DNA of 64,000 nt, from assembly GCA_033065855.1 (NCBI GenBank), contig JAVXUO010001662.1:62001-126000 (forward strand), in the 5' to 3' direction. This DNA is from Escallonia rubra. Taxonomy: Eukaryota > Streptophyta > Magnoliopsida > Escalloniales > Escalloniaceae. Below, piece after piece: positions 28,501-51,656 of the stretch. Positions within the stretch are counted from its first letter, which is position 1. Each line of letters starts with the position of its first letter. The notes below the pieces were generated by a model. The model saw only the letters and a program-made list of their open reading frames with translations. It had not been told where the DNA came from and made no database searches. A program made the translations under genes and the position numbers.

Positions 28501-28681
28501 AACGCTCAGCTCCACTAATCTACAACATTTCGCTTAAAAAAAATGTCGCTAAAGTTGTCAAAATTATTGCTTACTAAATTGTCACTAAAGGTCAATAACT
28601 AAATTTTTTTTAACTGTAAAACAAGCCTAAGATTTTTGGGTGTTAAAGTTTCTGTACTCATCATTTTTTTGGGATGTTATA
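25554..28681 (-). mobile_element. Gypsy-type LTR in opposite orientation
   Basis: Ends TGTAACATCCC and GGGATGTTATA are imperfectly inverted. On the minus strand it shows the order seen in the other LTRs: a purine-rich leader (plus-strand CT-rich 27900-28170), an AT-rich middle and a tail with GAGCTCTCAAAAGCTCACCC (plus 25870-25895) matching 16694-16712 of the 5' LTR. No primer-binding site or polypurine tract flanks it, so it is a solo LTR or remnant. Flanks gtttc and aaaat do not match, so no target duplication is evident. A stretch near 28380-28600 has gtcactaaag-like motifs, perhaps a relic of a CACTA. Confidence 0.68.
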
Positions 28682-29593
28682 AAAATTATATTGTGAATCT
28701 TAAGAACCAGTAAGTATGATTTTGTTAAAGATTTTCGTGTTTTGATCACACAGTTGTGATTATTGTTATCATTTGGTCCTTAAGTGCTTGATTAAGATCA
28801 TTATTTGTTGTGATTAACCTCAGATGCTTCTTCTTCTTCTTCTTCTTCTTCTTCTTTTTGTGATTGGTGTGTGTTTAATGTGTTCCAAAATATTAACTGG
28901 TTATGATTGTTATTCATAAAGTAGAAATTTGATTATCAGAGTTCTACTGTGTTTTATTCCTAAGTTCTTTTGGAATTGATAGTATGTTATGTACGTGTAT
29001 CTTTACCTAATTTAGGATTTGCATAGTTCACTTGCTTTATATGAGATTATGTAGACTCCTAAGCCTCATATCAGCTGTGAGTGAGAGTAGACTCTCAGAA
29101 CATGGATTAGACTTTGAGAATATGGTTGAACATATGATGGTAGACCCCATGTTACTTGCCTTTAGAACTGAAATATCTTAAATGTTTAACTGAAACGGAT
29201 GATCAAAGGATAAGGCTATAAGATTTTTATAAATAACGTGATTGTGAATTAGAAGGGATAAAAAACTTAGAGCCTTGAACTCTAGTGAAAGTGTAAGACA
29301 TGCAAGTGCATGATCATATTTCGTGCTATGATAAGGTAACACATCTCTCCATAATGAATTCAGTAACAGTTTGGACTCGTTTGATTCAAGACATCAGAGT
29401 GCGCATCAAAATAGTAGTGGTTACAATTTTTCAGTCTTTTTGTGAGGTGTAAGTGCTTATAAGAATTGGTTATCTTATCCGTGTTAGCTTTGGCAGAGTG
29501 CAAGTCATGTGTGACCATAGCTTAGTACTTTAGTATCCCATGGGCTTGAAATTAAGCTCGTTAATATTAAGTAGATGATGTAGATAACATAGT
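28682..29593 (+). other. Gypsy internal remnant or unassigned sequence, with a (TTC)n tract
   Basis: No coding motif was recognised. A (CTT)n/(TTC)n microsatellite occupies 28826-28856. The segment ends in agt, which is duplicated at 50747-50749, so it was contiguous with 50750 onward before the CACTA nest arrived. Confidence 0.5.
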
Positions 29594-30479
29594 CACTACA
29601 ACAAACACTACAAGAAAAGAGGGAATTAGCGACGAACTTTTAGCGACGGAATTTAAAAGTCCTTTCAGCGACGGATACAACCGTCGATGAAACATCCGTC
29701 GTAAAAATGTTTTAACGACGGAAACAGCCGTAGTTAAAACATCTTACGGACATATTTTCAGTGACGGTGTTTTACCGACAAAGTATACCGCCGTTAAATA
29801 GTTTATAGGTTTTTTTTCATTTTCATTTATTTTAAAAGAATATATAGGCGACGGAATCATTCCGGCAGTAAAAGAAACCGTCGGGGAAAGGAGAGTTTTG
29901 CCGCCGAACTTTCACCGACGGCTGTGTTCCGTCGGTAAAGGTCTTAAAAAGACCAAATCCACCTGCTTTTCTTTCTCCCGTTTCTCTCTCTCTCTCTCTC
30001 TCTCTATTAACGCTCACCAGCGATATCTCCTCCGTTGCCACCTCAGTCGCCATCCCCGGCAACCCAGCCCCCGACGTATAGCCTGCCACCGACGCCACCA
30101 CTGCCACCCATCTTAAAAACCGGAGCACCACCGTCGCCACCGCCGCGCCGCCCATCTTCAAAACCTAGAGGTATGTGGGTTGTTTTTCGCTTCATGAAAA
30201 TTGTAATGATCTTAATAATGAGTAATTGGGTTATTTGAGCGATTGTGGGTTATTTGAGCGATTGTATTACCTTAGAAGGGATCCCAATCAGAATATGGGA
30301 TCATGAAGGGTGGTGATTTGTGAGGTTCAGTTTGGCTTAGTTTAGTAAACTATGAACTACAAACCACAATTTTTAGTGTAGCACAAAATTTTTAGTTTAG
30401 TAAACTATGCACTTGTATTGTTGGTTGAAGCTGTAGACTAGAGGTGGTTTGTTTGGTCTGTCAATTTGGTTTGGTTTTG

Positions 30480-31800
30480 GACAAAGGTTTATTGTTTGCT
30501 AGTATTAGTTGATGCCCTAATCAAACCAAACCCTAAACCCTAAATTAAACTAATTGAATCCCTAATTAAACCCTAAATTGATTGCCCCAATCTAACCGAA
30601 CCCTAATTGAACCCTAAATTGAATGCCCTAATCCAACCGAACCCTAAATTGAACTAATTGAACCCTAAATTGAATGCCTCAAATCAACCGAACCCTAAAT
30701 TGAATCAATAGAACCCCCTAATTGAACCCTAAATTAAAGTAATTGAACCCTAAATTGAATGCCCTAATTGACTCGAACCCTAAATTAAACTAATTGAACC
30801 CCTAATTAAACCCTAAATTGATTGCCCCAATCTAACCGAACCCTAAATTGAATGCCCTAATCTAACCGAACCCTAAATTGAACTAATTGAACCCTAAATT
30901 GAATGCCTCAAATCAACCGAACCCTAAATTGAATCAATAGAACCCCTTAATTGAACCCTAAATTGAAGTAATTGAACCCTAAATTGAATGCCCTAATTGA
31001 ATCGAACCCTAAATTAAACTAATTGAACCCCTAATTAAACCCTAAATTGATTGCCCCAATCTAACCGAACCCTAATTCAACCCTAAATTGAATGCTCTAA
31101 TCCAACTGAACCCTAAATTGAACTAATTGAACCCTAAATTGAATGCCTCAAATCAACCGAACCCTAAATTGAATCAATAGGACCCCTTAATTGAACGCTA
31201 AATTGAAGTAATTGAATCCTAAATTGAATTCCATAATTCAATCGAACCCTAAATTAAACTAATTGAATTCCTAATTAAACATTAAATTGATTGCCCCAAT
31301 CTAACCGAACCCTAATTGAACCCTAAATTGAATGCCCTAATCCAATCGAACCCTAAATTGAATTGAACACTAAATTCAATGCCTCAATTCAAGTCAACAG
31401 TATATTAAATGAATAGAACCCCCTAATTGAACCCTAAATTGAAGTAATTGAACCCTAAATTGAATGCCCTAATTGAATCGAACCCTAAATTAAACTAATT
31501 GAACCCCTAATTAAACCCTAAATTGATTGCCCCAATCTAATCGAACCCTAATTGAACCCTAAATTGAATGCCCTAATCCAACCGAACCCTAAATTGAACC
31601 CTAAATTGAATGCCTCAAATCAACTGAACCCTAAATTGAATCAATAGAACCCCCTAATTGAACCCTAAATTGAAGTAATTGAACCCTAAATTGAACCCTA
31701 AATTGAATGCCCTAATCGAACCGAACCCTAAATAAAACTAATTGAACCCTAAATTGAATGCCCTAATACAATCGAACCCTAAATTGAAATAATTCAAGCG
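30480..31800. repeat. AACCCTAAATTGAA minisatellite with about 235-bp higher-order period
   Basis: The basic motif AACCCTAAATTGAAT recurs dozens of times. A longer block containing attgccccaatctaaccg recurs at 30581, 30821, 31050, 31290 and 31526, spacings of 240, 229, 240 and 236 bp. CCCTAAA is the plant telomere unit, but every copy is interrupted by TTGAA, so this is telomere-like rather than telomeric. It is non-coding and lies in the 5' part of the transposase-coding CACTA. Confidence 0.88.
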
Positions 31801-32103
31801 CATCGGATATGTGAATTTTGAACAATTTTTTCCCATTTGAACATTGATCATTTGTTTGATAATTTTAGGTTGTTAATTGTGCGTTTTAGAATTGTGATTA
31901 TTGATCAATGATTTTAGGTTATTAGCTGTGCATTTGAAGTAATTGCGATTATTAATTGATGATTTTAGGTTGTTAATTGATGATTTTAGATTGTTAATTG
32001 TGCATTGAGCATTTGAGATATTGAGATTATTGACGGAAGATGGGACCCAATTGGATTGAATGTGTGATTTTTGTTAATTTTTATTGCATTGAGCATTTGA
32101 GAA

Positions 32104-32690
32104 TTGAGAATTGAGATTGTTGACGGAGGATGGGACCCAATTGGATTGAGATACTTGTTATCTAGCGCAGACACGGACACCACGTCTGACCGACGGTATC
32201 CGACATTTAAAAAACAAATTAACGTATGCCGATGTGTCTGGAGGTGCGTGTCGGTGGGCGTCGGACACGTGTCCGGAGGCGTCGGACACGTGTCCAAAGG
32301 CGTCGGACACGTGTCGGTATGTGTCGGACACGTGTCCGGAGGTGTCAGACACGTATCGGACACCATATCGACACCCTATATGAGGTGTCGGAATTGAGGT
32401 TGTTGACGGAGGATGAGACCCAATTGGATTGAGATACATGTTAGTTAGCGCAGACACGGACACCACGTTTGATCGACGGTGTCCAGCATTTAAAAAACAA
32501 ATTAACGTATGCCGATGTGTCTGGAGGTGCGTGTCGGTAGGCGTCGGACACGTGTCCGGAGGCGTCGGACACGTGTCCAGAGGCGTCGGACACATGTCGG
32601 TATGTGTCGGACACGTGTCCGGAGGTGTCAGACACGTATCGGACACCATATCGACACCCTATATGAGGTGTCGGAATTGGGGTTGTTGAA
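32104..32690. repeat. 282-bp tandem duplication built of CACGTG-centred palindromes
   Basis: Two copies (about 32118-32400 and 32400-32682) of a unit starting gttgacggagg and containing about five consecutive GTCGGACACGTGTCCGGAGGC-type subunits. The 12-mer GGACACGTGTCC is a perfect palindrome with a G-box core. Spacing of the palindromes is about 20-24 bp. Frames across it translate to repetitive GHVSGGVGHVS peptides and are not genes. Confidence 0.88.
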
Positions 32691-32699
32691 TGTGCATTA

Positions 32700-33610
32700 A
32701 ATTTAGGTTAGTTAGGTTAATGCGACATTTTTAGCATGCACCCCCTGGAATCTAATTGTGACTCCAGCACTGGCTATAATTAGCCCTAATTAGTCATGAT
32801 TAACAATATTTTAGTAAATCAATTAACCCTAATTAGCTCTAACGAGCCTAATTAGTTTTAATTAACCCTAAGAACCTGATGAAATTCAAATTAGCTGTAA
32901 TTACCCCAAATTAGCCCAAATGAACCCAATTATGCGCATATTGATTGTAGTTAGCCTAATTAGTCATAATTTGCACTAACATAACCCAATTACGCCTAAT
33001 TAGCGCTAGTTAGGACTAATCAACACTACTCGGCACCATCAAAACCCTAATTAGGACTAAATAACCCTAATTAGTCCTAATCAACCCTAATTAGCTATAA
33101 TTATTCGAAAGTAGCCCTCGTTAACATTAATTAGCTCTAACATAACCCAATTATGCCTAATTAGCCCTAATTAGGACTAATCATCACTACTCGGCACAAT
33201 TAAACCCTAATTAGTCATAATCAACCCTAATTAGCTATAATTATCCGAAACTAGCCCTCATTAACATTAATTAGCCCTAACATAACCCAATTAAGCCTAA
33301 TTAGCCCTAATTAGGACTAATCAGCACTACTCGGCACAATTAAACCCTAATTAGGACTAAATAACTCTAATTAGTCCTAATCAACCCTAGTCAGCTATAA
33401 TTATCCGATACTATCCCTCATTAACATTAATTAGCCCTAACATAACCCAATTAAGCCCAATTAGCCCTAATTAGGACTAATCATCACTACTCGGCACAAT
33501 TAAACCCTAATTAGGACTAAATAACCCTAATCAGTCATAATCAACCCTAATCAGCTATAATTAATAATCATAATTAACCCTAATAACCCAGTTAGCCCTA
33601 ATTAGCCCTT
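32700..33610. repeat. CCCTAATTAG minisatellite with 140-160 bp period
   Basis: Dense CCCTAATTAG, GGACTAATCA and CTAATTAGC motifs. The landmark actactcggcac recurs near 33025, 33186, 33326 and 33486. Non-coding; third of the tandem blocks upstream of the transposase gene. Confidence 0.82.
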
Positions 33611-34774
33611 GTACATCCCATAATTACTCCATGTTGCCTAGAGATGGTTCAATTACTCGTTGTTTACAAACCCTGCCTTCTTTATATTAATTGTTGTTTT
33701 GAGAAGTCCATTGGCAACGAGATGGTTCAACTCGTTGCCAACGAGTTCTATTTAATGTGGAATTGGTAACATATGGAACGATCTTTCTGCAGTTTTGATA
33801 TTTCGGAAAGATTCTTGCATATCTTATCAATTTCTGAACACATGCATGCATAGAAACCCTTAGTTCCCGTTCAAAGGTACTCATTACAAAGTAATGCCTT
33901 GTAATGAGCCTTTGGATGTCCAGTTTGGACAGTTTGGAAAAGCTAATTGTTTATAAAACAGTGTTTTGACTCATGCTTTATGTTCCATGTTATGGATATT
34001 TGGTACACGTTCTTGTGTGTTTCTCCGGGTGCATACAGATCTGGTGTTCTAACATCCGTCAAACCTTCATGAGCAAGGTTAGATGAATGTTAGAACACCT
34101 AATCGATGTGGTGTACTTGGAGAAATGCGGGGAGGTGCTGCCGAATTTTCCACAGACATGGGACTAAGCATGAGTTATTCACTGTTTTATAAACATGTGC
34201 TTTTCTGAATGGGATAGGACCACTACCTGTTCAAGAGTGGAGGGAAAATATGTAGACATGTTGTAACATTCATGCATTGATATTTACATCGGCAATGCCT
34301 AATCACTGGTCATTATTGAAGGTGGTATACAGTACGATAATTCAGTCGTCATGTCAGTCGATCGAAGTTGGATGAAAAGGAAGAATGCTGAAGATTTTGA
34401 GTGTCGCGTTGACGAATTTCTCGACTTCGCTTATGCGCATCCTGCACATGTTGACCTTGATAAGATAAGGTGTCCGTGCGGTAGATGTGAGTTGTTGCAC
34501 TGGAGAAAAAGAATTGAAGTAAAATGGCATTTTCGTCGGTACGGTTTTATGGGTGGATACACAAGGTGGACGCAGCACGGGGAAACGATAGTATTGTCGT
34601 CCAACCTGGCTAGTCAAACTGAAGTTAGGGATGAGGCACGATATGATTTCCGAGATATGATTATGGATGCTGGGCATGCTAATGTTGACTGGGGTAACGA
34701 CAATCCACAACTGTCGAACGAGGGGGCTCATCAGTTTTATGAGTTGTTGAGAGCTGCGGACGAGCCGCGGTGGG

Positions 34775-36525
34775 CACTACAAGAAAAAGTGTTTTTAGCG
34801 ACGGATTTTTAGCGAAGGATCAATTTCCGTCGCTAAAAAGCACTTTAGCGACGGATATTTCCGTCGGTAAACGTCTGTCGCTAAAGATAGTTACCGACGG
34901 AAGTTTTCGTCGGTAAATATTTTCAGCGACGGACTTTTACCGACGGTAAATCCGTCGCTAATTTGAATTTGAAAAATTCTACCTTCTTTAAAAAGCTTTT
35001 TTAAAAAAAAATAATATTTAAATAACTTTTACTGACGGACTTTTACCGACGGTGAAAATCCGTCGCTAAAAGTTATATAAATAGACACAAACCCTAGTTG
35101 CTTTCTTTTCTCCCAGCCGCAGTTTCTCTTCTTCTCTTCTGTTTTCTCTATGCATCTCTCTTCTCTCTACAGCCCCCCCACCTCACCCCCGTGCCACACC
35201 TGCCACCGCATCCCCGCCGGCGGCAGCAGCTAGGCACGCGGCGCACACCCCGCGGGTGAAACAGCCACGCACACCCGGTGCTACAGTCCCGCACGCATCT
35301 TCCCCGCTGAACTCCATTGTCGCCGGCCACCGTATGGTGGCTATTTTGACGGTGTTAAACAAGGTAAATTTTCTGATCCAATGTTTGATTCTTAGTTTTT
35401 TGAACCCTTTCTTTTTATTTTTTTGCAATTTTAGAAGTAGGGTTTGGTATACAATTGGGAATTGGGAATTAGTTGATGCTGTAATCATTTAGAACAAAGA
35501 CCATGCATGGGATGACGATTTAAGTTCCAATTTGAATCCATAAATGAGCTCTAACTTTTGTTTTTCATCCTGCCTTTCAGTGGATCTTCTGGGTTGGTGT
35601 TGGTCAGTTCATCGGGGCCGCTCTTGTTGCTTTGTACCATTAGATAATTATCAGAGGCATTCCTTTCAAGAGAAGGGCTTTGTACCCAACTGTTGTCTTT
35701 TTTCCTTTTCATGTATCGTGGGATCAAGTGTTAATTAGTGGTTAATTATGGTGTGTATATTACCATTGTCCTTGTTTTTTAAGAAGGGGGATACAGGAAG
35801 GGGATACTGGAAGGTGTGAAGTCATTCCTGTAGCCATTATTTTGCAATGTGTTGTTTTTTAGCAGGTTTTTTAGTTTCATATTGAGATTTTGAATTTTGA
35901 GATACGTATTGACATCTAGCTTAAATCTTTTGTTTCACTTGGAATTTGGTAAAGATGAGTGCTAGTTTAAATAATTCAATTATTGTTGGATTAGTTGATT
36001 AGAAGTAACGGTCTAAAAAAGATTTGGCACTGTAAAAATTAATAAAAATAAAAAACAGCCTTTTGGGTTTTAGCGACGGAATTCCGTCGCTAAAAGTCCT
36101 TCTGCAAAATGGTAAATATTTTTAGATATAGACTTTTAGTAATGAAATTGTCGTTACAAATCTGTTGGTAAATGATTTAAAGACTTTTAGCGACAGAATT
36201 AATGTTACTAAATACTTTTACAATGGACTTTTAGCGACGGAATTTTAGCCACTAAAAGATTTTTTATTCAGAAATTAAAATATTAGAAAAATATAGAAAA
36301 TACCTTTAGCGACGGAATTTTCGGTCGCTAAAAGTAATTATTTCCGTCGGTAAAAGTAAACATTTGCCGACGGATCACCAAAATCCGTCGCTAATCTTTT
36401 AGCAACAGGGTTTTTAACAACGGACTTTTAGCGACGGACAGTCCGTCGCTAAAAGTCTTTACCAACGGATTACCCACTATTAGCGACGGAATTGTCCGTC
36501 GCTAAAAGTGGATTTTCTTGCAGTG
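34775..36525 (+). mobile_element. Non-autonomous CACTA inserted in a TNP2 exon, PIP-carrying
   Basis: 1,751 bp, CACTACAAGAAAAAGTG to ATTTTCTTGCAGTG, target duplication ggg at 34772-34774 and 36526-36528. Subterminal zones carry TTAGCGACGG arrays (34795-35070 and 36065-36510), the same dialect as the host element. Retaining one ggg joins the TNP2 frame exactly (tgg gat gga gct). The interior contains a GC-rich leader-like stretch (35100-35360) and a PIP aquaporin exon fragment. The last T of the usual CTTGTAGTG end has become C. Confidence 0.94.
35581..35690 (+). pseudogene. Captured C-terminal exon of a PIP aquaporin
   Basis: A splice-acceptor-like TGCCTTTCAG at 35571-35580 precedes a frame reading WIFWVGVGQFIGAALVALYH, a stop, then IIIRGIPFK. 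This is the last transmembrane segment and cytosolic tail of plasma-membrane intrinsic proteins, and exon borders of PIP genes fall just before WIFWVG. A small insertion (VGQ) and the TAG at 35641 show it is not functional. The retained acceptor indicates capture from genomic DNA. It is in the same direction as TNP2. The GC-rich segment at 35160-35360 may be another piece of captured DNA. Confidence 0.82.
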
Positions 36526-38389
36526 GGGATGGAGCTCCGAAACACACACGGCTGTCTGCGGTTAGTAGGTTATTACAGTTGAAATCAGACCACGGGCTGA
36601 GTGAGAAAGATTTTAACGAGTTTGTTACCTTCATCAAAGAAATACTGCCCGAAAGTGAAAAGCTACCGCCGTCGTACTATGACGCGAAGAAGATGATGAG
36701 GAAACTTGGGTTGAGCTATGACCGGATAGATGCGTGCAATAACGATTGTGTATTATTCTGGAAAGAGAATAAGGATTTGTCATTATGTCCAGTATGTGAT
36801 CATTTGAGGTACAAACCGGACAAAGGGGAGAAGAAAAACATTGCATGGAAGATATTGCGATATTTCCCGGTCACACCACGGCTTCAGAGAATGTACTACT
36901 CCTCCAGTACGGCTGAACATATGAGGGCTCACCGTGAGACTCGCAGCAACGATGCCGATGTGTTGACACACCCAGCTGATGGAGAGGCGTGGAGGGAGTT
37001 TGACCGCAGGCATTCAAGCTTTGCTGAGGAAGTTCGGAATGTTAGACTCGGTTTGGAAACCGACGGGTTCAATCCTTTTAGGCAGTCTACCACGCCTTAC
37101 TCCTGTTGGCCTGTTATTATTGTCCCTTACAACCTTCCACTAGGCATGTGCATGAAGAAGCCGTATATGTTCTTGTCGTTGCTTATTCCGGGGCCGAAGA
37201 GTCTCGGTAAGGACATAGATGTGTATTTAAGGCCGTTGATTGATGAGTTAAAACAATTATGGAATCATGGAGTTGAAACATATGATGCATCCCTTAAACA
37301 AAATTTTCAGATGAGGGCTGCTTTGATGTGGACTATACATGATTTCCCCGCATTGGGAATGACGTGTGGCTGGAGCACACATGGGAAGCTAGCATGCCCT
37401 GCTTGTATGGGCATGAACCCCGGTCATACGTTAAAGCACGGTGGAAAGGCCTCGTGGTTCGGATGTCACCGTAAGCTTTTGCCACCGGGCCATCAGTTTC
37501 GTAGGCAGAAGGATAAATTTGACGGGACAATCGAGCGTGAGGTTGTCACACTGGACTACCCATCTGGTGAAGAAGTACTCTCACACCTGGAGGCACTTGA
37601 TACTGACATACCACACGGTAAGGGTGTGCCGGATCGGAATATTGCAGGGTTCGGGAAAGAGCACAACTGGAGAAAATTTTGTATCTTCTGGGAGTTAGCC
37701 TACTGGAGGACGCTCGTTATCCGAAACAACATGGATGTGATGCATATTGAGAAGAACGTTTTTGATAATGTGTTCAACACAGTGATGAATGTCAAGGGCA
37801 AATCGAAAGATCACCTTAAAGCGAGAAGGGATCTACAACAGTTGGGTGTACACCGTGAATTGCATCCTCGGACAGTCAGTGGGAGGACCATACTTCCGAA
37901 AGCACCTTACTGTCTAGACAAGAAACAAGTGGAGAAGGTCTATCAGTGGGTTAAGAATTTGAAGCTTCCGGATGGGTTTGCGTCCAACATATCTCGTTGT
38001 TGCAATGTATCGGAATGCAAGTTCCAAGGGATGAAGAGTCACGACTGCCACGTATTCATGGAGAGATTCATTCCTATTGCCTTCCGGGGACTATTGCCAC
38101 GGGTTGTTTGCGAGACTTTGACTGAATTATCTCATTTCTTTCGAGATATATGCTCTTCTACGATCCGGGTGAGTAACATGGAAATGCTTGAGAAGAACAT
38201 TGTGGTGACGATTTGCAAGCTGGAGAAAATCTTCCCACCTTCGTTCTTTGATTCAATGGAGCATCTGCCTGTTCACTTGGCATATGAAGTTAAGATGGGT
38301 GGACCCGTGCAATATCGGTGGATGTATCCCTTCGAGAGGTAATCCTTAAATTGTTATAGTTGTTCGTTTACACTTAATGCGACATATGT

Positions 38390-41300
38390 CACTACAAAAA
38401 AAAAGGGTTTAGACGACACTAAAAAAGTGTCGCAAATGATAGTAAAAGTGTCGCAAAGTAGTTTCCCGACACTTTTTTAACACTTTTTACAAGTGTCGCA
38501 AATTCGTCCGTCGGGAATTTTCCGACACTTCTTAGACACGTCGGCATTAGACTTACGACACTTTTGTGCGACACTTTTAAGTGTCACTTATGAGGTTAAT
38601 AGTCAACTTAGGTATGCGACACTTTGAAAAAAAATGTCGCTAAGTTAGCGACGCTTCCATTAAAGTGCCAGTTTTTATTTGGCGGCATTATCTTTGAAAT
38701 GCTGCTAAATTAGCGACACTTGTATTATGTGCCAGTTTTTGTTTTTGCAGCATTATCTTTGAAATGTCGTTTTATTTACGGCACTTTTAAGCAATTGTCA
38801 CTAATTTTGCCTAACATATTCTGAAATTTGTCAAGAAAACATTAACCTAAAACGTGAAAGTGAAGTATTTAAGTAATCACTGCTCCAATCCAACACGAAT
38901 AATGAACAACCAAGTCAATTTAATAAGATTATAAACTCATCATTATAGAAATAAGCTAATGTCATTCAACTATACGATATCCAAAATTCGCATCTTAATT
39001 ATATAACCATCCAGAACTTCTCAATTTCAAAAACATACAATTGTAATTTCATTGAACAACTAAACCTAAAGATATATACATGTCATCCAAAATGTCATCA
39101 TAGTGCATATCGGTTCTTCTACGTCCAACAAAAGCATTGATGTATCTCTTCCCAAGATATAAACCTGAAAATAAAAAAGTTAAAAACGAAGGTTATAAAT
39201 TTTAACCTTAATAACACAAGTCCAATTAAACCGAAAAACTAGTCGACAAACAGAATGCATTAAGAAAGATGAAGACTCGTCTACGTACCCCATTTCATTC
39301 TTGCATCTTATTTTGCAAATCTTTTAAAGTGATGAAATTCTTCTTTATTCTTTTAGGTTGAAAATCTGAACAATTAGATCATATGTAATCATTAGTTACA
39401 CAAAAGAAAGGGACAATCATCTGAAAAACAGCCATGCACTCTAAGTAAACATTTAGGTTAATGTAAACAGCCATGCACTCAACCAAGATCCGCAATGCCC
39501 ATGCTTTCACCTATCCCTTGATTCTTAGGCATAACCCCTACAATCCTTTGATAAAAGAGGAATCATGGTGGAATCATTTATGTGAATATTGTAATATTGC
39601 AAAATCGACCACTCTTAGTAGGTAGCTTTTCATGTTTCTGTTTTCAAGCATTTAACTGACTCAAACAATATATGGTGGCTCAAGTAAAAAAAGACTAACA
39701 AAAATGTCAGACATGCCCACTCAACATATATTCTTAGCAGAACTAGCTTGTTTAGGCTAGCTTCTCATCACGTACCAGCCTACCAGGTAAAAGAAAAGAG
39801 AGAATCCTTTCAGGCCTTGTTGTTTCTGCCATCATCTTCTTTTCGAGCTGCGTAAGCGAAAGCTTCAGCTGATGATATTCAGCAACTTCAGCCTACAAAT
39901 TAACAAACAAAGTTGAGAGAGAGAAACAGACACGCAGAGAGAGAGATTGATTAGGCTGCAGTTCCAAGCGTGGCTACTTCCTCTTCTAGCTTCGAAACCT
40001 TGTTCCTTATGTCAGGCAAGGCCTAAAGAAGGGAGAAATCATACGGTGTTGTACATTGAGCACAGGGGGAGTTAGAAACAATAGAGGTTGTTCAGAACAG
40101 ACCTTCTCATACTGAAACTGGTGAAATGAATGCCTAATAACATTCTTAGCAGTGAATTGGCCCTCAGCACGGCTCATCAAATTCAAAATTGAGTAGTAGC
40201 TCAGCCTAAAAGTACTGACCAATGGAGCTGGTATACCAAGCACCATGACAATAGTACAAAACCTTGTATAAGTTTAAGAACTGCTCATAATATCTTCAAG
40301 AATTGTTGCATCGAACACTTGCAGTGGTGACTCCAAATCATGAGTTGCCATAATTATCATTGCCAAGGTTGAACGAAAAAAAGATTTAGCAACAGAGTAA
40401 AACAACGTCAAATTATGAGCAGTAGATAAAAACAGTTTGCTGTATCAAATACCTGAAGGGCTAGAATGAGAAAGCTCCACATTCTGTCAAAGCTTCTGAA
40501 AATATGGCAAAATGAACGAATATTTACAAAATTTGTCTTTCCCAACCATTTTGGCTCTGGCCTTTCTTCCGTATTAACCTGGAAAAGAAAAAAAGAACTC
40601 TGAAAGCAAAAATTTAATGAGAAAACAGAAACATGAGACATGAAATGGTCAATGTGCGTGTGTTTTTTGTGGGAACTGATCAATCAGTCTGGGAGCAATT
40701 TTGGCACGCAGAGGATCAAGTCATGACTGTAAACTGTAATTCCTGCTTTTTGACTACCAAGTGTAAAGTCTTATGACAAACTTATGCTCTTTAGCAGTAT
40801 AGATATCAAGAAAGAAGAGAAAGAAAGGCAGGACATATATTACACGACTTTAAGCGGGCAAAACAAATAAGCTGCACTTGATTCTAACCAACTTTTGGAT
40901 CAACAGGAAAATTTAAACTAAAATTCTTTTACATTACGCAATTCACACTTCTCAAACATGACATATTTATGTACCCATAAACATTTGCCAAAGACGAATT
41001 TAATTAGCTTGACTTCCAATATTTAAACTTCATTCAACATCGCATTGTACAATGAAAAGAGGAGAAAGAAAAACAAAACTGATGATACATTGGATACTGA
41101 TGATGATGCCTGAGTCATCCCAGCCATATTTACTTCCACATTAACAGTACATTACTTAATCATTCATTCATATAGCTACCTAATTCAAGGAAGAGAACTA
41201 CACTTAGATTGCTAAAAACATTGACCAACTCCAAGTATCCAACGAAAGGCAAGGGCGCATCTCCCGAAGATAGCAAATCATGTGTAGAAACAAGTTAGCT

Positions 41301-42349
41301 AATTCAGCCTTGCATTTCAAGTTCGATTTTGACTAATCACTTTGTTTCAACTGATGCGGCACTATGCTCAATGAAAAAGGTAAAAATAAAGGGATGCAGA
41401 CTAGGAATTATCTTGTATCTAGCAGCTCACACACGCTCGCAACAACTGCAGACAGACACTAACACACAAACATTAAGTGAGGTGCATAAATTGTAAAGGA
41501 AACCAGTGACAAAAGATTAGAACTAAGCAAAATAGAAACTGAATAGAGCACCTTGACAATTTTGTATATATCAGAACCTCTGGAAGCATTTCCACCTTTT
41601 GTAAATGATTCCACATCAGAAATAAAATAGATCTTAGAAAAGTGAACTAATTGAGCAATGAAGTAACATAATCTCAATCGTCAGATGTTACATGAAACCT
41701 GTGAAGTACCAAAAGTGACATACCTCTTACAAATTGCAAGTCCGTGACCACTGCCATCAGAATTTTTTGTTGCTAGTGAGAGAAACAAAGGGACAGATCA
41801 GACTGGTGAGAGAGAGAGAAGAAATTAGGGGTACGAAGGGGCATCTAGGGTTCATACCTCTGATTGAAAGTCAAGAGTCCATGAAGGGTAATCGCAGGCA
41901 AGATCCAGCTTAGAGAGAGAGAGAGAGAGAGAGAGAGGGCGAGATTGGTGTGTGTCTAGGTGTGTGGGTGAGGGGGGTGGGGCGGTTTCCATTGTTCAGC
42001 AATCGAAGTAGAGCTATTCATTTTTTTTGAGTTTCCGACGTTTGACCCTACGCCTCATAGGTGCGGTTCATGATACGTAGTCGTTTAGTAACTAATGTTG
42101 ATGACGTTTTATTTTAAGTGTCGCTATTTAGTGACACATGGATGAATGTCGCATACTTAATGTCGCAAACATCAAAAGCGACACTAAGTTTGCAACACAT
42201 AAAAAAGCGTCGGCAAGTTTGCGACACAAATATAATTATGTCGGTAAATTTGCGACATTACGGTGAAAGTGTCGCAACTTACAATTTATTTATGACATTT
42301 TCTAAAGCGTCGGGAATTTAGCGTCGCCGAAACCCCTTTTTTCGTAGTG
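38390..42349 (+). mobile_element. Non-autonomous CACTA in a TNP2 intron, MTR4/HEN2-carrying
   Basis: 3,960 bp, CACTACAAAAAAAAAGGG to CCCCTTTTTTCGTAGTG, with target duplication tgt at 38387-38389 and 42350-42352. The ends are full of a different subterminal motif (GTGTCGCAAA / AAAAGTGTCG; 38405-38800 and 42110-42330), so it belongs to another CACTA group than its host. It lies within the TNP2 intron 38339-42394 and would not itself disrupt coding. The middle holds minus-strand pieces of an RNA helicase gene. Confidence 0.93.
39770..41625 (-). pseudogene. Captured MTR4/HEN2-type RNA helicase gene segment with introns
   Basis: On the minus strand, in gene order: 41610-41552 reads GGNASRGSDIYKIVK and ends at a GT donor. 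40246-40103 reads PAPLVSTFRLSYYSILNLMS then RAEGQFTAKNVIRHSFHQFQ and ends at GT. 40022-39955 starts after an AG and reads ALPDIRNKVSKLEEEVATLG. 39892-39785 starts after an AG and reads AEVAEYHQLKLSLTQLEKK and TRPERILSFLLPGRLV. These are consecutive conserved stretches of the SKI2-like helicase that drives nuclear exosome decay, including the start of the arch region. The DExD core exons between the first two pieces are missing. Retained introns show DNA-level capture. It is a relic with no full-length frame. Confidence 0.9.
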
Positions 42350-43806
42350 TGTTATCATTGATATTCCACCTAACTCGATTAGCTAAACTTCTAGGTTCAT
42401 GTTCCATTTAAAGAAAAAAGTCCGTAATAAGGCTCGGGTTGAGGGCTAAATTGCGGAGGCTTACGTAATGGAAGAACTTGTAAACTTTTGTAGTCAATAT
42501 TTCGGGCCTAATGTTGGTACGAGGTTAAATCAACTAGGCCGAAATGATCCCGGAGCAAGCACAAATTTGGAAGGGCAATTGTCAATATTCAAGCAGTCAG
42601 GTAGTCCGTTCGGCCGAACGTATACTCGATGGCTAACAGATGAAGAGTACAGTGTTGCAACAATATATGCCCTTCTAAATTGCGATGAAGTTTCGGCATT
42701 CGTTGAGTAAGTTAAAGTCTTAATTCACTTACATTGCTGTACATAATTGAAAGTGTGTGTTAAGCGAGTCAAATGCATATTGGTTTGCAGTGAGTTCGAT
42801 GCAGAATCTTTAATCACTGATCCCGCTGGACTTGAATCTCATCGAAAATCACAATTTGTACAGTGGTTCAAAATCCGTGTAAGATTATTTAACGAAATTA
42901 TATTATGTGTTATATACAGTTCTGTGGCCAATTAGTATACTGATTTATCCTTAATTTTTACCATCATCTACAATAGGTTCAGTCAATGGATAGACCAGTG
43001 GCCTCCTGCTTGAAATTACTAGCCGAAGGCCCTAACAAACAAACATCCTGTTACGGAGGCTATATCATCAACAGGTTTAGGTTTAACGTAAAAGATGATG
43101 ACCGAACAAAACAAACCCAAAACAGTGGAGTCTTGGTCAACTGCGACTGTTATGCCGAGAATTGCATGGATTTTTACGGAGAGCTAGATGAGATTGTTGA
43201 GCTAACATATCTGGGTTCTCAAAACCGCCTGGTAATGTTCAAGTGTACGTGGTTCGATGTCACATGCAGTAGAGAAATCCGTGTTAGCTCTCAAGGGATT
43301 GTAGATGTCAATGTCAAGTCAAGACTTGCATCAGACGAGCCCTTTGTGTTTGCTAGTCAAGCTGTACAAGTCCTTTACGCGGAGGACGTCGCCAATCCCA
43401 AATCTCATTGGTATACAACTATCAAGTCCAAGAAATTGCCAGTGACATATGACAGTGAGCTAGACTCCTTTCAAGCCGACCAACCACGTGTCTTGTTCCC
43501 TGTTGAGGTCAACAACGAGGAGGACGATCTTCCTCTTCCAACAACACTTCTTGTGGGAGAAGAAGTCGTAGATGATGGCGCGGAAGATGTTGAAAGTGTT
43601 GGAGATGATGTGACCGAGTCTACTGATGAAGAGGATGAATTAGAAGATGAAGAGGACGACGAGTCCCACGAAGAAGAGGGCGACGAGGAAAGTGATGAAG
43701 ATGATTCGCAAACTAAAAATGATTGACTTGTAATGTTGTAACATCACGGGAAAAATGTAGTAACATTTTAGAACTTGGTGTTTATTGATGTGTTTTTGCA
43801 CATCCG

Positions 43807-43809
<3 letters not shown>

Positions 43810-43846
<37 letters not shown>
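43810..43846. repeat. (AT)n microsatellite
   Basis: About 18 AT repeats between the TNP2 stop and the second gene of the CACTA element. Confidence 0.95.
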
Positions 43847-43849
<3 letters not shown>

Positions 43850-43912
43850 CCGATGATGATTTATGCCTAAATTATTGTTTTTCACGTGTTAATGTCTTTG
43901 TATATAATCTAT

Positions 43913-45574
43913 ATGAAGTCAGCTATGGATAGGATATGGGCTATTCGTGGCCGGGCTGGACGCCGAGCTGCTTCCTCCCCGGTTGGTCCCACCTCGTCAT
44001 TGCTTACTGATGACGAGGCACAGAGTGATCACGGACAGCCATCGGGGGCCCAACCCCAGCCGTCGTCGTCACCATCGCCCCAGCCCCAGCCCCAGCCCCA
44101 GCCATCGCCGTCGCCCCAGCCCCAGCCGTCGCCCCAGCCCCAGCTCGAGCCGTCGCCCCAGCCCGACGCAGATTCATCCCACACGCGCGTGCATTCTCCA
44201 TCTTCAGTGGGTTCTACCTCAGGTATAGTTGATAACGGTGTTTCGTACATTTTCGCTAGCCTTATATTTGAACTGTATTAATGTCTGTGTTTTGTAGGAT
44301 CTCGACGAGGCCGTGGTCCGACACGCGGGGTACACATCGACCCCCAGCGTAAACAGAGAGTTACGCTCACGCATGAGGGCCTGTAAGTACTAAAAATATC
44401 ACCTCATGCCTTATGTTTAAAATTTTGGGGTGTTAATTTATATTTGAACTGTATTAATTAATTTAATTACTTCTTTGGCAGGATCCTGGAGAATATGGCG
44501 AGGACGAAGATCGGCGTTCTTGTGAAGGGCCGATTCTTCGAGCCACGCCTGTATTGGAAGGACTGGGATGCCGCTGCGAGGGAGGCCCTATGGGAGGAGT
44601 GGCTGGTACGGTGAAGTATTTTTTTTAGCGTTAGTAAATGTTAAATTACAGTTTGTTTTATGTTGTTAATTTGTGTTATTGAATGCCTTACAGGAGGGGT
44701 TCACGTTTGACACGCCTCAGCAGCAAGTACTGGGGCAGCAGGCTTTCTTTGCCTACATCGGCAAGAATTACCGCCGATGGCTCCACGATGCACGGGACCG
44801 GGCGAAGAAGGCGCTGCCCGTAGGTGCCCCGATGACGGACATGACGAGATATCCCCCACATTGGATATCTCACCGTGTATGGGGGGAGATGATAGATCGG
44901 TGGGCTGCGGATCCAGGTTGGGACGCCAAGAGTAAGAGCGGGGCTGAGAACAGACATAACAGAGATCCGACGCACACGGGGGGGTCGGTGCCACACGACA
45001 TCGTCCGACACATGAACGCGGTTGAGCACCCGGATCTGGAGGAGGATGAGGTCATAGCTCTGACCTATACTCAGACGCACGTGCGGAAGAAGGACAAGGA
45101 CGAGACGCACCGGGCGGGCGACTATATTTTAGATATTGCCCGGCGGATCGATGTGAGTCAATTTATTTAAGTTAATGTTTTTTCTTTCTATCCTCAATGT
45201 CTGTTTCGTTAATTAATGCCCTAACATATCATTAAACCACTATTTTTGCAGGCCTCGTATGAACAGCTAAGGGGGTCCGAGCAGCAGTCCGGACAGCCAT
45301 CAACGTCCACTAGTACGGCTGCGAGTACGGGGGGTTGAGGCGATGGCCGGCTACGCCGGAGGTCGTGAACCGGCCGAAAGGCCGCATACGCGGCCTGCCT
45401 AGCACGACTGCTCGTGTCGTGATAGGAACATCCTCACCCCCTGCTGCCCCTCCACAGACACCGGCTCCTCGTCCTCAGTTGGACGACGAGGAGATCCAGC
45501 GCATTGCTACAGTGGTGGTGAGGATGATCAGGGAGCAGGGCACTGCTGGACAGGCCGAGCCGGCTCCGGATTAG
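43913..45574 (+). pseudogene. TNPA-like: TNPA-like second CACTA gene (plant transposase, Ptta/En/Spm family)
   Basis: Five exons can be joined: 43913-44222, 44298-44382, 44482-44605, 44694-45152 and 45252 onward, all GT-AG. The N-terminus is a Pro/Gln/Ser-rich linker (PQPQPSPSPQ repeats, 44050-44160). The central part (KGRFFEPRLYWKDWDAAARE, YPPHWISHRVWGEMIDRW, GAENRHNRDPTHTGGSVPHD, TYTQTHVRKKDK) matches the Transposase_24 type. In En/Spm this product binds the subterminal repeats. The frame hits TGA at 45336-45338 after a G6 run; a one-base loss there would explain the still conserved continuation GRIRGLPSTTARVVIGTSSP to 45574 in the next frame. The start among several in-frame ATGs (43892, 43913, 43925) is uncertain. 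Confidence 0.82.
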
Positions 45575-45637
45575 CAGGATCCAGATCCGGGACTCGGGAA
45601 CCTCTGATGAGCCCCTTCCCGTGCCCGTTCCTAGATT

Positions 45638-45656
45638 CCCCCCCCCCCCCCCCCCC
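45638..45656. repeat. Poly-C tract
   Basis: A run of about 19 C between the TNPA-like gene and the right subterminal array. Its length may be unreliable in sequencing. Confidence 0.9.
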
Positions 45657-46683
45657 TGCGCCCGGCTTGTACTATTCTCCCCTTTCCTAACCGGCTCTAT
45701 TCGGTTCCCGGCTTTTACATATATGAGTTTTTTTATAATAAATATTTTTTATAATTGATTATATATATTTCTTTCTGTATTGATTATTGCGCATTGTTGT
45801 TGAGAATTGAAAATTATATTACAGGTCTGGGTAATTGAAATATCAAAAAAAAAAATTGACTTTTGGCGACGGATTAATTCCGTCGCTAAAGTATTCCTAC
45901 AATCAGTTATTTAGCGACGGAATATTCCGTCGCTAAATAAGTTGTTTAGCGACGGAATATTCCGTCTCTACAATATTTAATCCGTCGCTAATTTGACAAA
46001 AAAGAAAATAAATTAAAATTCTAAAAATATAATTAGCGTCGGAATATCCGTCACTAATGAAAAATAAATCCGTCGGTAAAAATGACATATTTAGCGACGG
46101 ATTTAAAAATTCCGTCGCTAAACTATTAGTGACGGGCTTTTATACGAGAGATTTTTAGCGACGGTGAATCCGTCGCTAATTCTTTTAGCGACGGAATTTG
46201 GGCTTTTAGCGACGGATTTCCCCGTCGCTAAAAGCCTGTTTTCTTGTAGTGAAAATATGGTTGTAAGGACGCCTATAAAGGGACGCTTTACTGAAAGCGT
46301 CCTAAAAAGTGGAATATGAGGCGCTAACTATCAAGCGTCCCATATTCTGGTTAGCTGTAAGGACGCTATACTCAAAACGGCGGCGTTTTGACTTAGCAAG
46401 ATCCCAAATTTTTCAGTGGCGCGCAACAAAAAAGAGAGAGGATGAAAAACGCGGCCAATTGGGTTTGTCAATACTACACCGTTTCAGCTCATTGCTTTTG
46501 GGTTTCTACTTCTCTTTTGTACTTCATTTCTGTTTCAGTCTCTCTCTCACAACTCGTCTTCCATCCATTACAACATCCATGGCCAATATGATGAAGACCT
46601 AAAGGTAACTTGCTCCTCCCTTTCTCTATCATAACTTCTAGGGATAGAGGACACCCATTTTCTGCCTCTCTCTCCTTTTTCTC

Positions 46684-47100
46684 CTTGACGCCGGCGGTGC
46701 TCAAACGTCAACCTATGAAGCTCTGCAGCAATACAATTTCCCGTTGGAAACCTCTCGAAGGGCGTGACCAATTATGATTTTGAACCATGCCACTGGCGAG
46801 TTCTTGGTTCATAAGAACAGCACTTGCGAGTTGCAGCTTCAAACTAGAGAATAATGACGAACTCAGCTACGAGTCCACCATAAAGGGGGTGATATCCAGG
46901 GACAAGCTGGAGAATCTGAATGGCGTCACCACTAAGGTGATGTTGCTGTGGTTGAACAGCATGGAGGTAAGACGAAACGGTGGAGAGCTCAAATTCTCTG
47001 TTGGGATTGCGTAGACAAAATTTTTGGTCAGTAATTTGAGGAGTGTCCACGGTGTGGGTGTGGCCTGGATTGTGGTAATGGGGATAATGGCGAAGGAAGG
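46684..47100 (+). pseudogene. Captured DUF538 gene fragment
   Basis: Across frameshifts the sequence reads an apparent secretory leader (FCLSLLFLLDAGGA, starting near 46655), then TSTYEALQQYNFP, KGVTNYDF-like, HATGEFLVHKNSTCELQL, LSYESTIKGVISRDKLENLN, GVTTKVMLLWLNSMEVRRNG, FSVGIA and EECPRCGCGLDC. This is the full order of conserved blocks of the plant DUF538 family, small secreted or membrane-associated proteins. Stops and at least three frame changes break it. No intron is apparent. It lies inside the outer CACTA near its left subterminal array. Confidence 0.85.
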
Positions 47101-48096
47101 AAGGTTAGGTTGAATAGGTTCGTATCTTCTTCTTAGAAAACTTTTACTTCTTACACTTGATAGAAAAGTTTGGAAGTGCCAAATTCTGGGATTGATAACA
47201 AGTCTAGGCCAAGAGGAGTTCCCAGAAATAAACCAACTGGGAAGGTTTAGGTGTTTGAATGATGGGACTGTCAGATTTGAAGAAATTCACAAATGTCTCA
47301 TTCTACGGTAGGAGATAAATGACAATCCTTTGATTTTGGTACTGTTTGCTTTGTTTTGTTCAATCTATTGGCAAGCATGATGATTCAATTAGATGTATGA
47401 AAGGGTGAATTCCTTTTTTGAACTCAAACTTTGAGGCTATTTGTTGACTTGCCCCCATTCCCTTCTTTAAATTTTTTTTAATTACCATGCCATTGATAAC
47501 CTGTTGGGTTCAAAGTTTTCATTTGAAATTAGCACAATGGTTTTTGAGTGATTCTGAGGTAAGGGTTTGACAAGGATGATGAGACAATTATATGAGTGAA
47601 AGAGGTTATGCATATAATCCTTGGTGAACTCAACAGCGAGGCTTATTGATACTCTGACTTGCCCAGCCTTCCATTTGCAAAGAGAGTTTTCTCCTGGATA
47701 AAGTTTACCTCATACTGCATCTTGTTTTGCCAATCCTTTTCAGAGATTTGTTTGCAGCAATCTAATTACCCTATTTGCAACTTGAAATGTGGACATAATG
47801 GTGATTGTTTACAAGTTTTTGTTTGTGTCTTAGTGCCAGCATCCAGTCAGTCTTGTTGGCGTTTGCATTGGGTTTGCGAGACCCAGTTGAAGCTGCTACG
47901 TGATTACACCGCCAGACGCCTGATTAGAGCCTTTCACGCAATTGTTTTCTTATTTGGATACTTCGGTTTGCATGCATTCCTCTTGCTTTATGATGTTGTT
48001 CCATTCTTAGTGAGCTTTGACAACAAAAGTACTTTTGTTGTAGTTCAATGTTGATTAGTTTCTTTCTTTCAATTTCTAATCGTCTTTTTTTTTTGG
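47101..48096. other. Unassigned interior of the outer CACTA
   Basis: AT-rich with no recognised motif. A 131-codon frame at 47659-48054 has no family resemblance and is not counted as a gene. Confidence 0.4.
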
Positions 48097-49314
48097 ATCA
48101 GTTGCACATAGGACCCTATAGTTTGAAGGTATGTGCGCATTTCACCTTCGGGTTTTAATTTTGGCTCAATTCACCTCATTATTTCTTAATTTGTGTTTAA
48201 TTTACCAATTGACGGGCAGAACTCCAATTTCTTGTATGCCCGTCAAATTTTCAGGGATTAAATTGTAACTTCCCCTTTTTTCCATCATGGCAGCCACGTC
48301 ATAAGCATTTGCCAATAATGGGTTGACACGTGGGAACCACGTCAAGATTTGACCATCTTCATCTTCGCCTTCATGTTTCAGTAGATCCACCGCCCAACAC
48401 CAGCACTACCATACTTACTGCTGGCAGCGCCACCAACAACGCCACCATACCCATGTTTTCTGCCGCCACCACCACCATCACCATGCGTACCTGATTCTGC
48501 CACCACCACAGTACCATTACCTTTGCCGCTCGTTACACATAATACTATCAACCTTTCATACACAACCACCGCCACAACCACACTACACAGCCGAAACAAC
48601 AAAGTCACAACCCTAAAGCTCTTCCCTTTCCATTATCTTTCAAATCTAGCCCCTCCCTCACAGATCTACAAATGCTTAACATCAAACCTGGTGCCTCCAC
48701 CGTGATGTAGAGGGGACTGGCCAGTAGCACCAGGCTGGGCCATGAACTGGCAGTCTATTGCCCGATGCCGGTGGGGTTTGTAGTCGTGGATGAAGTATTG
48801 CTGTAGTGTGCCATGGGCTTCGCGACGATTATGGTGACTTTTTGGTGTGGTAGATCTGGCGGATCTAGATGTAATTAAAGGTATTAAAGGGATAGTGGCA
48901 GTTGGGAAAGATGAGAGATTGGCTTTTTAGTGTGTGCGGTGATTGTGATGGTGATGGTGTATGCGGTGATGGTGGATAGAGAGTGGGTGTTGAGACTTGA
49001 GAGTGGTGGTTCGGTTTAGATGGTGGTGGTGCTCTCTGGGCAGGCAAGGCAGGGGCTGGGGGTTGAAGGTAGGGTGTCGGGTGGGGGGGTTGAGAGATAC
49101 TGAAATGACATGGCTGCCATGATAGGAAAAAAGGGCAAAGTTACAATTTTATCCTTTAAAAAATTGACGGGCATCCAAGAAATTGGAGTTCAGCCGTCAA
49201 TTGGTAAATTAAACACAAATTGAGAAACGATGAGGTGAATTGAGCCAAAATTGAAATAGTAAGGTGAAATGCGCACATACTCTCAAACTATAGGGTTTTA
49301 TGTGTAAATGATCC
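48097..49314. mobile_element. TIR transposon (MULE-like) nested in the outer CACTA
   Basis: Long terminal inverted repeats of about 190 bp: the left GGATCAGTTGCACATAGGAC pairs with the right end, whose complement is GGATCATTTACACATAAAAC, and similarity continues through GACGGGC...AACTCCAATTTCTTG to about 48290 and 49125. It is flanked by T-runs on both sides, so a 9-bp all-T target duplication is possible but cannot be proven. The 0.8-kb interior contains a GC-richer, glycine-rich-coding stretch (minus strand 48378-48608) that could be captured DNA. No transposase. Confidence 0.82.
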
Positions 49315-50370
49315 TTTTTTTTTTTTTTTTGTAGGTGGATCTCTAGATTTTAATCAAAGTTGAGGTGCACACATGTAATAAAATGTAAAGGAATGGACTA
49401 ACTTCTTACATTCGGTTTTGCTAATTTTGTTTCTCCTTTCGAATAAAGCAGTTAGCCATTTTGAAGGTAGTCGCTACTTTCACCTATAGATGATTAGTAC
49501 TACAGTTTTATTAGATATTATGCAAGCAAAACCTCTATTCCTAACAAAATCTGTATACACTCCTGCAAATTTCTTCTTTATGGAGTGTTTGTTGATTAAG
49601 CGTTACCTTTATACTCGAGTCATCATCTTTGGTCTGATCACTTTGAGGCAAATAAGTTGCAGGCTCTGGGCGGGCTTGGCATAGTTACAGTGGGCATTTA
49701 GTATCTTCTGTGAAGCCAATAGTAAGTAATAAAGATCCTGAGGTCTTGAGTTACTACAGTGTCCATGTTGGCTATTTACCATTGATTGCCAGTTCTTCTG
49801 TAGAGCTAAAAATTAGGTAATGTCGAATTTATTTGCTCATTTCTGTTTGTTTTACTTGGTGTGGCTGTCTGCAGATTGAAGAAAGGGCATGGGGGCTATC
49901 AACAGTGAAGGGCTTGTAAGAATGCACCAAAAGTATTCATGTGCTAATGTTAGAATTCATGTGGTTTTGTGACTTCACACTGCTCCCAGTTCAGTAACCA
50001 TCTCCTTTTTGCAACTGTGGATGGCATGTGATATCTTTGCCCCCCTTAGCAATACAGATTATATAATGCCATTAAGGTTCGATTGCCTTGTATTAGGAAA
50101 TGTTAGGACAAACCCATTCCCAAGAGGTTTCTGGGCTGATTCAATGTGTTAGTCACAAGGCCTTAATGTAATTCTTCACTTGAGACATTTGGATAATATG
50201 AAGACTTTGAATGTTATCCTTCAATCAACTTGATTTTTTACTTATTATGGTGCAATGTGTATGAACTAAATTGGGCTACATTGATGTTTTGATGTGGTAC
50301 ATATTGGAATTGGTGAAGAAGGTATTACGGTATATAAATATTTGTAATTTAGTAAAATGAAAATGGGAAC
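49315..50370. other. Unassigned interior of the outer CACTA
   Basis: No gene or repeat recognised before the right subterminal array that starts near 50375. Confidence 0.4.
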
Positions 50371-50746
50371 ATGTTACAACGCTAAGAAGCGTGCCAAAAG
50401 ACTTATTAGAACACACTTAAGCGTCGCTATAGGGAATATTAAGTCTTCTGGTTGAGCACTTTATAGGACGCTAATAAGCGTTCCAACAGAGTTATTGGGG
50501 CGCTCCTTAGCGTCGCTATAGGACATATTAGAGTCTTGTAACTGAGCACTTTATAGGACACGTATTCGCGTCTTGTTAGGCCCTACCCTTGTTGAGGCGC
50601 TTATGTCACCCGCATAACTTATTGTGACGCCCTCTAATGGGGCGGGGTTACGACGCAATTCAAAGCGACCTTATGTCAAAAGCGTCCCTATATGTTACTT
50701 GTAAGGACGCTAAGATGCGTCCTTACAGCCTAGTTTTGTTGTAGTG

Positions 50747-51133
50747 AGTCTTTGATATACTATCAGTATAACACAGTGAAAACATGACAAATTAGAACTC
50801 GATTTAATTTGCTCTATGTGCATTGAATTTGCGATGGTGTAAGGTTAGTTCATTGAGTTTTGTAATAGCTAATTCATCGTTCGTGAAGTTCTTGAACAGT
50901 TAAAGTGAAGTGATTGCCAAATAGGATTTCAATTTTGCATTATGATTTAAACTTTAATTGCTGCGTTTGAGTATTCGTCGGAAGGAATTGGGTAAAAAGG
51001 TTCGATGTAGCTCAGCTAGCTATTATGTGGTAGTTATTAGAATTACAAAATGAAAGTGTAGTGCCTAAATGTTACAGGTAATATGAACCCCAGATCAAAT
51101 TTTGAGGACGAAATTTTTATAAGGTGGGGAGAT
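50747..51133 (+). mobile_element. 3' end of gypsy internal domain with polypurine tract
   Basis: The last codons read NFEDEIFIRWGD, the stereotyped end of Ty3/gypsy (Tekay/Del-like) pol, and the purine-rich aaggtggggagat lies just before an LTR start. It is the right-hand continuation of 28682-29593 across the CACTA nest. Confidence 0.8.
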
Positions 51134-51656
51134 TGTAATATCCCAAATTTTTTGAGCAGTTTAAAATAATTATCCGTGACCCAAAAAATAAACGGGTAAT
51201 AATTTGAGCAAAGTTCAGAGATTAGTAGAGCATGAAATGTTAAAATGATTTTGGGACAACAATGTAAATTTTAAAACTTTTGGGGTCATTTCGTAATTTT
51301 GGAAAACTTTGGGGGGCTAAATTGCAATTTGAAACGTAGGCATTATGTGTCAAATTTTAGAGAAATTGGTCACAATGTGGCCACCTCCTACTTCCTAGTT
51401 GATGACTAATGTAATTATATTATAAACAACTAAGTGGATAAAGTCTTAAGGGAGATTAAAAAAAACTAGAAAATTTAGGGAGGAAAGTGAAAATAAGGAA
51501 AAAAATATAGAACAAAACAGAACAGAAAAGGGAAGAGAAGAACGGAGCATAGTGCTCAGACAAAAACAGAGAAGAAAACGAGGGAAGAAGAAGAAAAAGA
51601 AAGGAGAAAGGGAGAGAATTAAAAACCTTCTTCAGGGGTAATCTTTCTCTCTCTTA
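51134..51656 (+). mobile_element. Truncated gypsy 3' LTR
   Basis: It starts TGTAATATCCC and follows 13789-14145 through the motifs GTGACCCAAAAAATAAA, ATAATTTGAGCAA and CATAGTGCTC, then ACCTTCTTC.GGGGTAATC. It contains an extra 130 bp (about 51310-51460) absent from the 5' LTR. Similarity stops at 51656, about 2.7 kb short of a full LTR. Confidence 0.82.

Follow-up and report, generated by a model that had tools for sequence, protein, structure and literature searches.

A stack of CACTA transposons was analysed in a stretch of 64,000 nucleotides from the genome of Escallonia rubra (contig C1976:62001-126000; hereafter the window). An outer CACTA element carries an inner one close to its left tip, and the inner one carries two smaller elements, A and B. 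We read the whole stack as ordinary cut-and-paste CACTA insertions, one within another, with a probability of about 0.95. The boundaries, the target duplications, the empty sites in relatives, the interruption of a gene and the pattern of decay were each observed directly. CACTA elements are defined by inverted repeats that run from CACTA or CACTG to TAGTG or CAGTG; some of them carry host genes, and nested transposons are very common in many repeat-rich plants (PMC10741241). Unlike those nests, the present one is composed of four CACTA elements with every tip readable. It is a new example of its kind and its value lies in cleanness rather than in surprise, as nesting of CACTA elements, their capture of genes and tips that read CAGTG are all known already. 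Searches of open-licence PMC papers for one CACTA element lying inside another pointed to a single paper, PMC7139988.

Boundaries and empty sites

The tips and boundaries of the four elements were located at the positions that a first-pass annotation of this DNA had assigned to them (Table 1). CACTA-type terminal inverted repeats, subterminal repeats at both ends and a 3-bp target duplication are present in every case, and the duplications, described there as perfect, were verified as agt for the outer element, aaa for the inner element, ggg for A and tgt for B. Two random 3-mers of the window match by chance with p = 0.019, and four such matches, with the boundaries fixed beforehand, have a probability of ~1e-7. 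The first 13 tip bases agree between left and right at 13/13 positions in the inner element and at 12/13 in both A and B. The outer terminal repeat is legible, as had been claimed, once the insert is removed: with the inner element left out, 26 of the first 30 nt match between the left and right tips. The 18 nt lying past the insertion point match the right tip at 14/18, a score attained at two plus-strand positions of the window, the site itself being one.

Empty sites and related copies were searched for in the plant's own 566-Mb genome, with the best 40 candidates scored per search. This check among paralogues had been proposed with the annotation, and it returned unbroken relatives for all four insertion points. 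For the outer element, the two flanks joined together matched without a break at 37 of 38 other places, with 74-83% identity (best 40 of 416 candidates); the single exception, contig C205, carries the outer element. For the inner site, the outer tip was joined across the insertion (12 + 246 bases). At 38 of 39 other places the alignment begins at query base 1-4 and continues through the insertion point (best 40 of 96 candidates), so the placement of the inner element 12 bp inside the outer tip, split here and unbroken in these relatives, was borne out. The closest uninterrupted tip in that set is that of contig C1331, 89% identical, which reads CACTACAATAAAATT. An exact-string look at 12 copies of the outer tip gave seven matches, all reading CACTACAACAAAATT uninterrupted. 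At site A all 40 scored matches were unbroken, at 98% (best 40 of 1332 candidates), and at site B the nine fetched copies were all unbroken, with a single TGT. The left end of the inner element was also compared with other copies: 29 of 39 begin within 2 bases of it, seven begin 4-16 bases earlier and three later (best 40 of 1380 candidates). Since empty-site relatives for each of the four insertion points exist in the same genome, the nest could be used to calibrate annotation tools for nested DNA transposons.

Several points weigh against this reading of the stack. The junctions are read from the assembly. The empty sites belong to paralogues rather than to alleles, and haplotype copies of one locus are likely among the relatives. 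Three of the queries (outer tip, A and B) were joined sites, which tend to pick out empty copies. Contig C205 matches the right-hand part of the outer element and the adjoining flank at ~97% identity and is probably the other haplotype. It supports the right side of the outer element, but its sequence runs out at the position corresponding to 46441, with ~190 bp still to go to the inner element; because it ends too early, it was rejected as an allele lacking the inner element. The subterminal motifs that mark the outer element and B are also less exclusive than AGCGACGG, the motif of the inner element and A, AGTGTCG being found in B in 13/17 instances, and AGCGTC and GGACGC in the outer element in 9/22 and 9/15. 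A chimaera in which repeats were joined wrongly during assembly could be suspected from the high copy number of these repeats and from the end of C205 near the inner element. It is nevertheless highly improbable, as misjoins would not be expected to produce four perfect duplications at exact tips with an empty site to match every one of them.

The description of the stack as a three-level nest proved to be an undercount. The outer element itself lies inside an old dispersed repeat, because its joined flanks match 37 unbroken places, and the nest is thus one level deeper than reported. The outer element also holds the stretch 48095-49314, which is a further transposon-like insert, since it has inverted ends, lies in a T tract and is absent from the paralogue C1331, where the alignment jumps from 48092 to 49315. 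The same stretch is present in C205. In the host repeat, several relatives skip from ~25557 to 28649, leaving 25558-28647 as an extra stretch in the window, and GTTTCTGTA is found at both of its edges (25549-25557 and 28648-28656).

Order of the insertions

That the outer element was in place before the inner one is well supported, because its tip is continuous in 38/39 relatives and split here. The order of insertion had been called certain; this holds for outer before inner, and does not extend to A and B, either relative to each other or relative to the jump of the inner element. A and B occupy neighbouring positions within the inner element, and for this reason cannot be ordered between themselves. 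Either of them may predate the jump of the inner element to this place, because cut-and-paste elements can carry passengers.

It is possible, though rather less probable than not, that A and B were already aboard and that a 16.6-kb composite entered the outer element as one event. Insertions stay with an element that moves by cut and paste, the two tips of the inner element are alike at 13/13 positions, and a CACTA element as long as 20.5 kb is described in PMC2613891. Against a single event, the junction of A is found a single time in the genome when up to 3 mismatches are allowed, and none of the copies examined (40 for site A, 9 for site B) holds A or B there; queries with joined sites, though, are biased towards empty copies, and a donor that moved by cut and paste would leave no such copy. 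For the latter reason the single junction, which agrees with a late insertion of A, is also expected from a composite that moved by cut and paste.

The tip-in-tip position is visually striking, and a preference of CACTA elements for CACTA tips as targets, with the 12-bp position reflecting a hot spot, was weighed. The pattern CACTACAA N0-25 CACTACAAGAAA has ten matches in the genome and none for the reversed control, four of the ten have a spacing of exactly 22 bp, and CACTACAAGAAA within CACTACAAGAAA was observed 4 times with 1.23 expected. This excess is small (P 0.037), comes from one of several ways of counting and includes haplotypes. Chance occurrences of the word CACTACAA, rather than tips, may account for some of the ten, for example those on C207 and C2570, and with 7327 occurrences of CACTACAAGAAA in the genome against 423 of the control, a few such cases are expected by chance. 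A hot spot is thus unlikely and, the excess being weak, is not claimed; the 12-bp position is not far from expectation for a CACTA-rich genome. The four matches with 22-bp spacing are on C414, C512, C1005 and C1011 and may reflect a small target preference.

The interrupted transposase gene and the CACTA families

It had been overlooked in the first-pass annotation that A and B both lie within the transposase gene of the inner element. This gene is identified as tnp2 by its Transpos_assoc, Transposase_21, DUF4218 and DUF4216 domains. A lies in an exon, and the frames on either side of it come into phase when the 1754 nt of A plus one duplication are taken out. B lies in an intron; the preceding exon ends, by eye, at GAGAG/GTAATC, and the intron splits the DUF4218 profile, with positions 1-64 before B and 63-113 after it. 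A private stop codon is present at 42447-42449 in the DUF4218 exon, where 9/9 copies have a sense codon. The coding sequence is thus broken by A and by the stop at 42447, and because of this interruption the inner element is named autonomous-type and not autonomous. Open frames at 43871-45170 were without a recognised tnpA-like DNA-binding domain. Upstream of the transposase gene, tandem arrays occupy 30536-31708, 32108-32689 and 32967-33563 (units of 240 bp, 283 bp and 140-300 bp). En/Spm and the Tgm-type CACTA elements of soybean likewise have 13-bp CACTA tips, a 3-bp duplication, subterminal repeats and tnp2, as described in PMC2613891; they differ from the inner copy, which is dead through A and its private stop and has AGCGACGG as subterminal motif.

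Table 1. Features of the CACTA stack, with positions in the window.
Feature	Position	Strand	Target duplication	Remarks
Outer element, CACTA	29594-50746	+	agt/agt	own DNA 29594-29605 and 46255-50746; 4504 bp including 1.2-kb insert
Outer duplication, left copy	29591-29593		AGT	
Outer duplication, right copy	50747-50749		AGT	
Inner element, autonomous-type CACTA	29606-46251	+	aaa/aaa	10.9 kb without A and B
tnp2, first coding part, broken by A	34351-34774	+		Transpos_assoc PF13963, E 8e-18; start codon by eye
Element A, non-autonomous CACTA in tnp2 exon	34775-36525	+	ggg/ggg	asymmetric tips, CACTACAAG / CTTGCAGTG; right tip CAGTG, not TAGTG
Degenerate aquaporin-gene fragment in A (probable)	35493-35688	+		
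tnp2, coding part	36529-38339	+		Transposase_21 PF02992, E 1.8e-81; DUF4218 PF13960, profile 1-64
tnp2 intron with B	38340-42394	+		splice sites by eye
Element B, non-autonomous CACTA in tnp2 intron	38390-42349		tgt/tgt	AGTGTCG subterminal repeats
tnp2, remaining exons	42395-43723	+		second half of DUF4218, small exon, DUF4216
DUF538 host-gene fragment in outer element	46826-47035	+		Pfam PF04398, E 9e-14; residues 191-260 of frame 2
Further insert in outer element	48095-49314			~210-bp inverted terminal repeats GGATCA...TGATCC; T tract; by self-comparison

The elements were compared by their subterminal motifs. All 43 occurrences of AGCGACGG in the window fall in the inner element, in A, in 20620-22880 and in the end at 377. 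Its counts in the first and last 400 bp are 2 and 12 for the inner element and 6 and 7 for A. Over the same intervals AGTGTCG is found 10 and 3 times in B, and the outer element has AGCGTC 4 and 5 times and GGACGC 5 and 4 times. These motifs suggest three families, with the outer element in family 1, the inner element and A in family 2, and B in family 3. To judge from the shared repeats, A is likely a client of family 2, whose gene it broke, and the family 2 transposase would have moved it. Two further CACTA sequences of the window bear on this family: 20620-22880 is another element (duplication taa/taa) with AGCGACGG subterminal repeats and resembles A, and 1-377 is the right end of an element from the family of the inner element, its left end lying beyond the window.

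No transposase domain was found in the outer element by a six-frame Pfam scan of 46255-50746, in which DUF538 was the sole match. Scanning the three forward frames of A against Pfam gave no match, and a six-frame scan of B gave only a sub-threshold match and no transposase; a domain identity for B was dropped since the match lies below threshold. The outer element carries its DUF538 host-gene fragment between CACTA tips. In A, an aquaporin match covers 36 residues at 35581-35688 with a best E of 0.0015, which lies above the default cut-off of 0.001 (PIP2-4, E 0.013). Ahead of this match, NKDHAWDD, which we take to be a motif of aquaporins, is read from 35493. Tgm-Express of soybean is likewise non-autonomous with host-gene fragments (PMC1947982), and the 140 capture events described for wheat chromosome 3B are of the same kind (PMC4290129); compared with these, the fragments here are short, namely DUF538 in the outer element and a weakly matching aquaporin remnant in A.

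The decay of the inner copy was followed by comparing ~2172 coding nt with 12 relatives, whose majority sequence is without a stop in the compared part. Eleven of the 12 relatives differ from their majority by 0-9 nt (0-0.4%); the remaining one, L054, was left out, with 290 differences, an internal deletion and a poor alignment. The near-identity of the 11, some of which may be haplotype copies, suggests that the family was recently active, and the inner copy is a dead side member of it. The inner copy differs from the majority by 36 substitutions. C>T or G>A changes account for 22 of these (8 at CpG, 9 at CHG and 5 at CHH), and by coding effect the 36 divide into 10 synonymous and 26 nonsynonymous. 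This pattern agrees with a methylated element decaying without selection, and the inner copy was probably silenced by methylation. Its divergence from the majority of the relatives is ~1.5-1.7%, from two compared stretches that overlap by ~90 nt and with one indel counted. Substitution rates for dating are 7e-9 to 1.3e-8 per site per year. The resulting figure of ~1.1-2.4 million years measures time since common ancestry and not insertion age; it is unreliable because of the C>T bias, and exact dating was rejected.

The following course of events is proposed for the stack. A non-autonomous CACTA of family 1, with its DUF538 fragment, entered the old dispersed repeat; the 1.2-kb inverted-repeat element is lodged within it. 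An autonomous-type CACTA of family 2 later entered this outer element 12 bp from its tip. A, a gene-carrying non-autonomous relative in family 2, landed in the tnp2 exon, and B, an unrelated non-autonomous CACTA of family 3, in the tnp2 intron, each before or after the jump of the inner element. The inner copy is now decaying neutrally.

The 3' tip of element A and further repeats

A query with 34850-36525 of A returned 17 other full-length matches, 88-98% identical. Right tips were read in 33 copies, 13 of the 17 long ones and 20 of 22 shorter matches reaching the right end, with three contig pairs sharing flanks. The tips are CAGTG in 16, CGGTG in two, CAATG and CATTG in one each, TAGTG in 12 and TGGTG in one. 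Among the 13 long copies, 11 have CAGTG, two have CGGTG (one locus by flanks) and none has TAGTG; all 12 TAGTG tips belong to the shorter, more distant matches. The 3' tip of the A lineage is thus TTTTCTTGCAG followed by TG, and that of its distant relatives is mostly TTTTCTTGTAG followed by TG, which argues that CAG is probably derived in the lineage of A. A private mutation of A was rejected, 16/33 other right tips being CAGTG, as was the idea that such a tip is new to science, since CAGTG is listed as a typical end (PMC10741241). The lineage stayed mobile; at its other loci, duplications of ATT and AAT were seen at two, and the left tips are CACTACAAG in 3/3 read (two sharing flanks). Because this genome contains relatives of both kinds, some with the canonical 3' tip and some with the changed one, the effect of a single terminal base on CACTA mobility and splicing is directly testable.

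We also considered whether the A lineage could behave like an introner, in that a copy inserted in sense into an exon might be spliced out as an intron. A plant transposon of this type would soften the harm done by its insertions, here even to the gene of its presumed helper. By eye, TTTTCTTGCAG is a good plant 3' splice site, better-looking than TTTTCTTGTAG. A GT lying 5 bp before the insertion point, used with the tip of A, would excise exactly 1754 nt (A and one duplication) and so give the tnp2 exon back its length and its phase. A dSpm element in maize A2, described by Menssen in 1990, is said to act as an intron with splice sites at its CACTA termini; in comparison, A shows compatibility of sequence with such a role. 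One mode described for introners is to bring their own 3' site and to borrow the 5' site from the flank (PMC9860276). Several observations speak against splicing. The donor GCG/GTGGGC is weak by eye. Three other upstream GTs within 60 nt also keep the phase, which makes the fit less remarkable than at first sight, and three more possible GTs lie in the first 65 nt of A. The tnp2 gene is dead anyway, and CAGTG ends are typical (PMC10741241). A spliceable A lineage is therefore quite improbable. As introners were not found in land plants in one survey (PMC9860276), splicing of such a lineage in a plant would, if true, be of interest.

Other repeats were noted in the window. A CACTA-like tip pair delimits 58135-61311 (3177 bp), with flanks ttc and tta (an imperfect duplication) and no occurrence of AGCGACGG. 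Two 374-bp direct repeats at 4719-5092 and 6337-6710, 99.5% identical and ~1.25 kb apart, look like a young short LTR (long terminal repeat) element. The stretches 378-3128 and 12511-15380 are duplicates of each other, 84-90% identical, and are partly related to 18461-18994 and 51136-51657.

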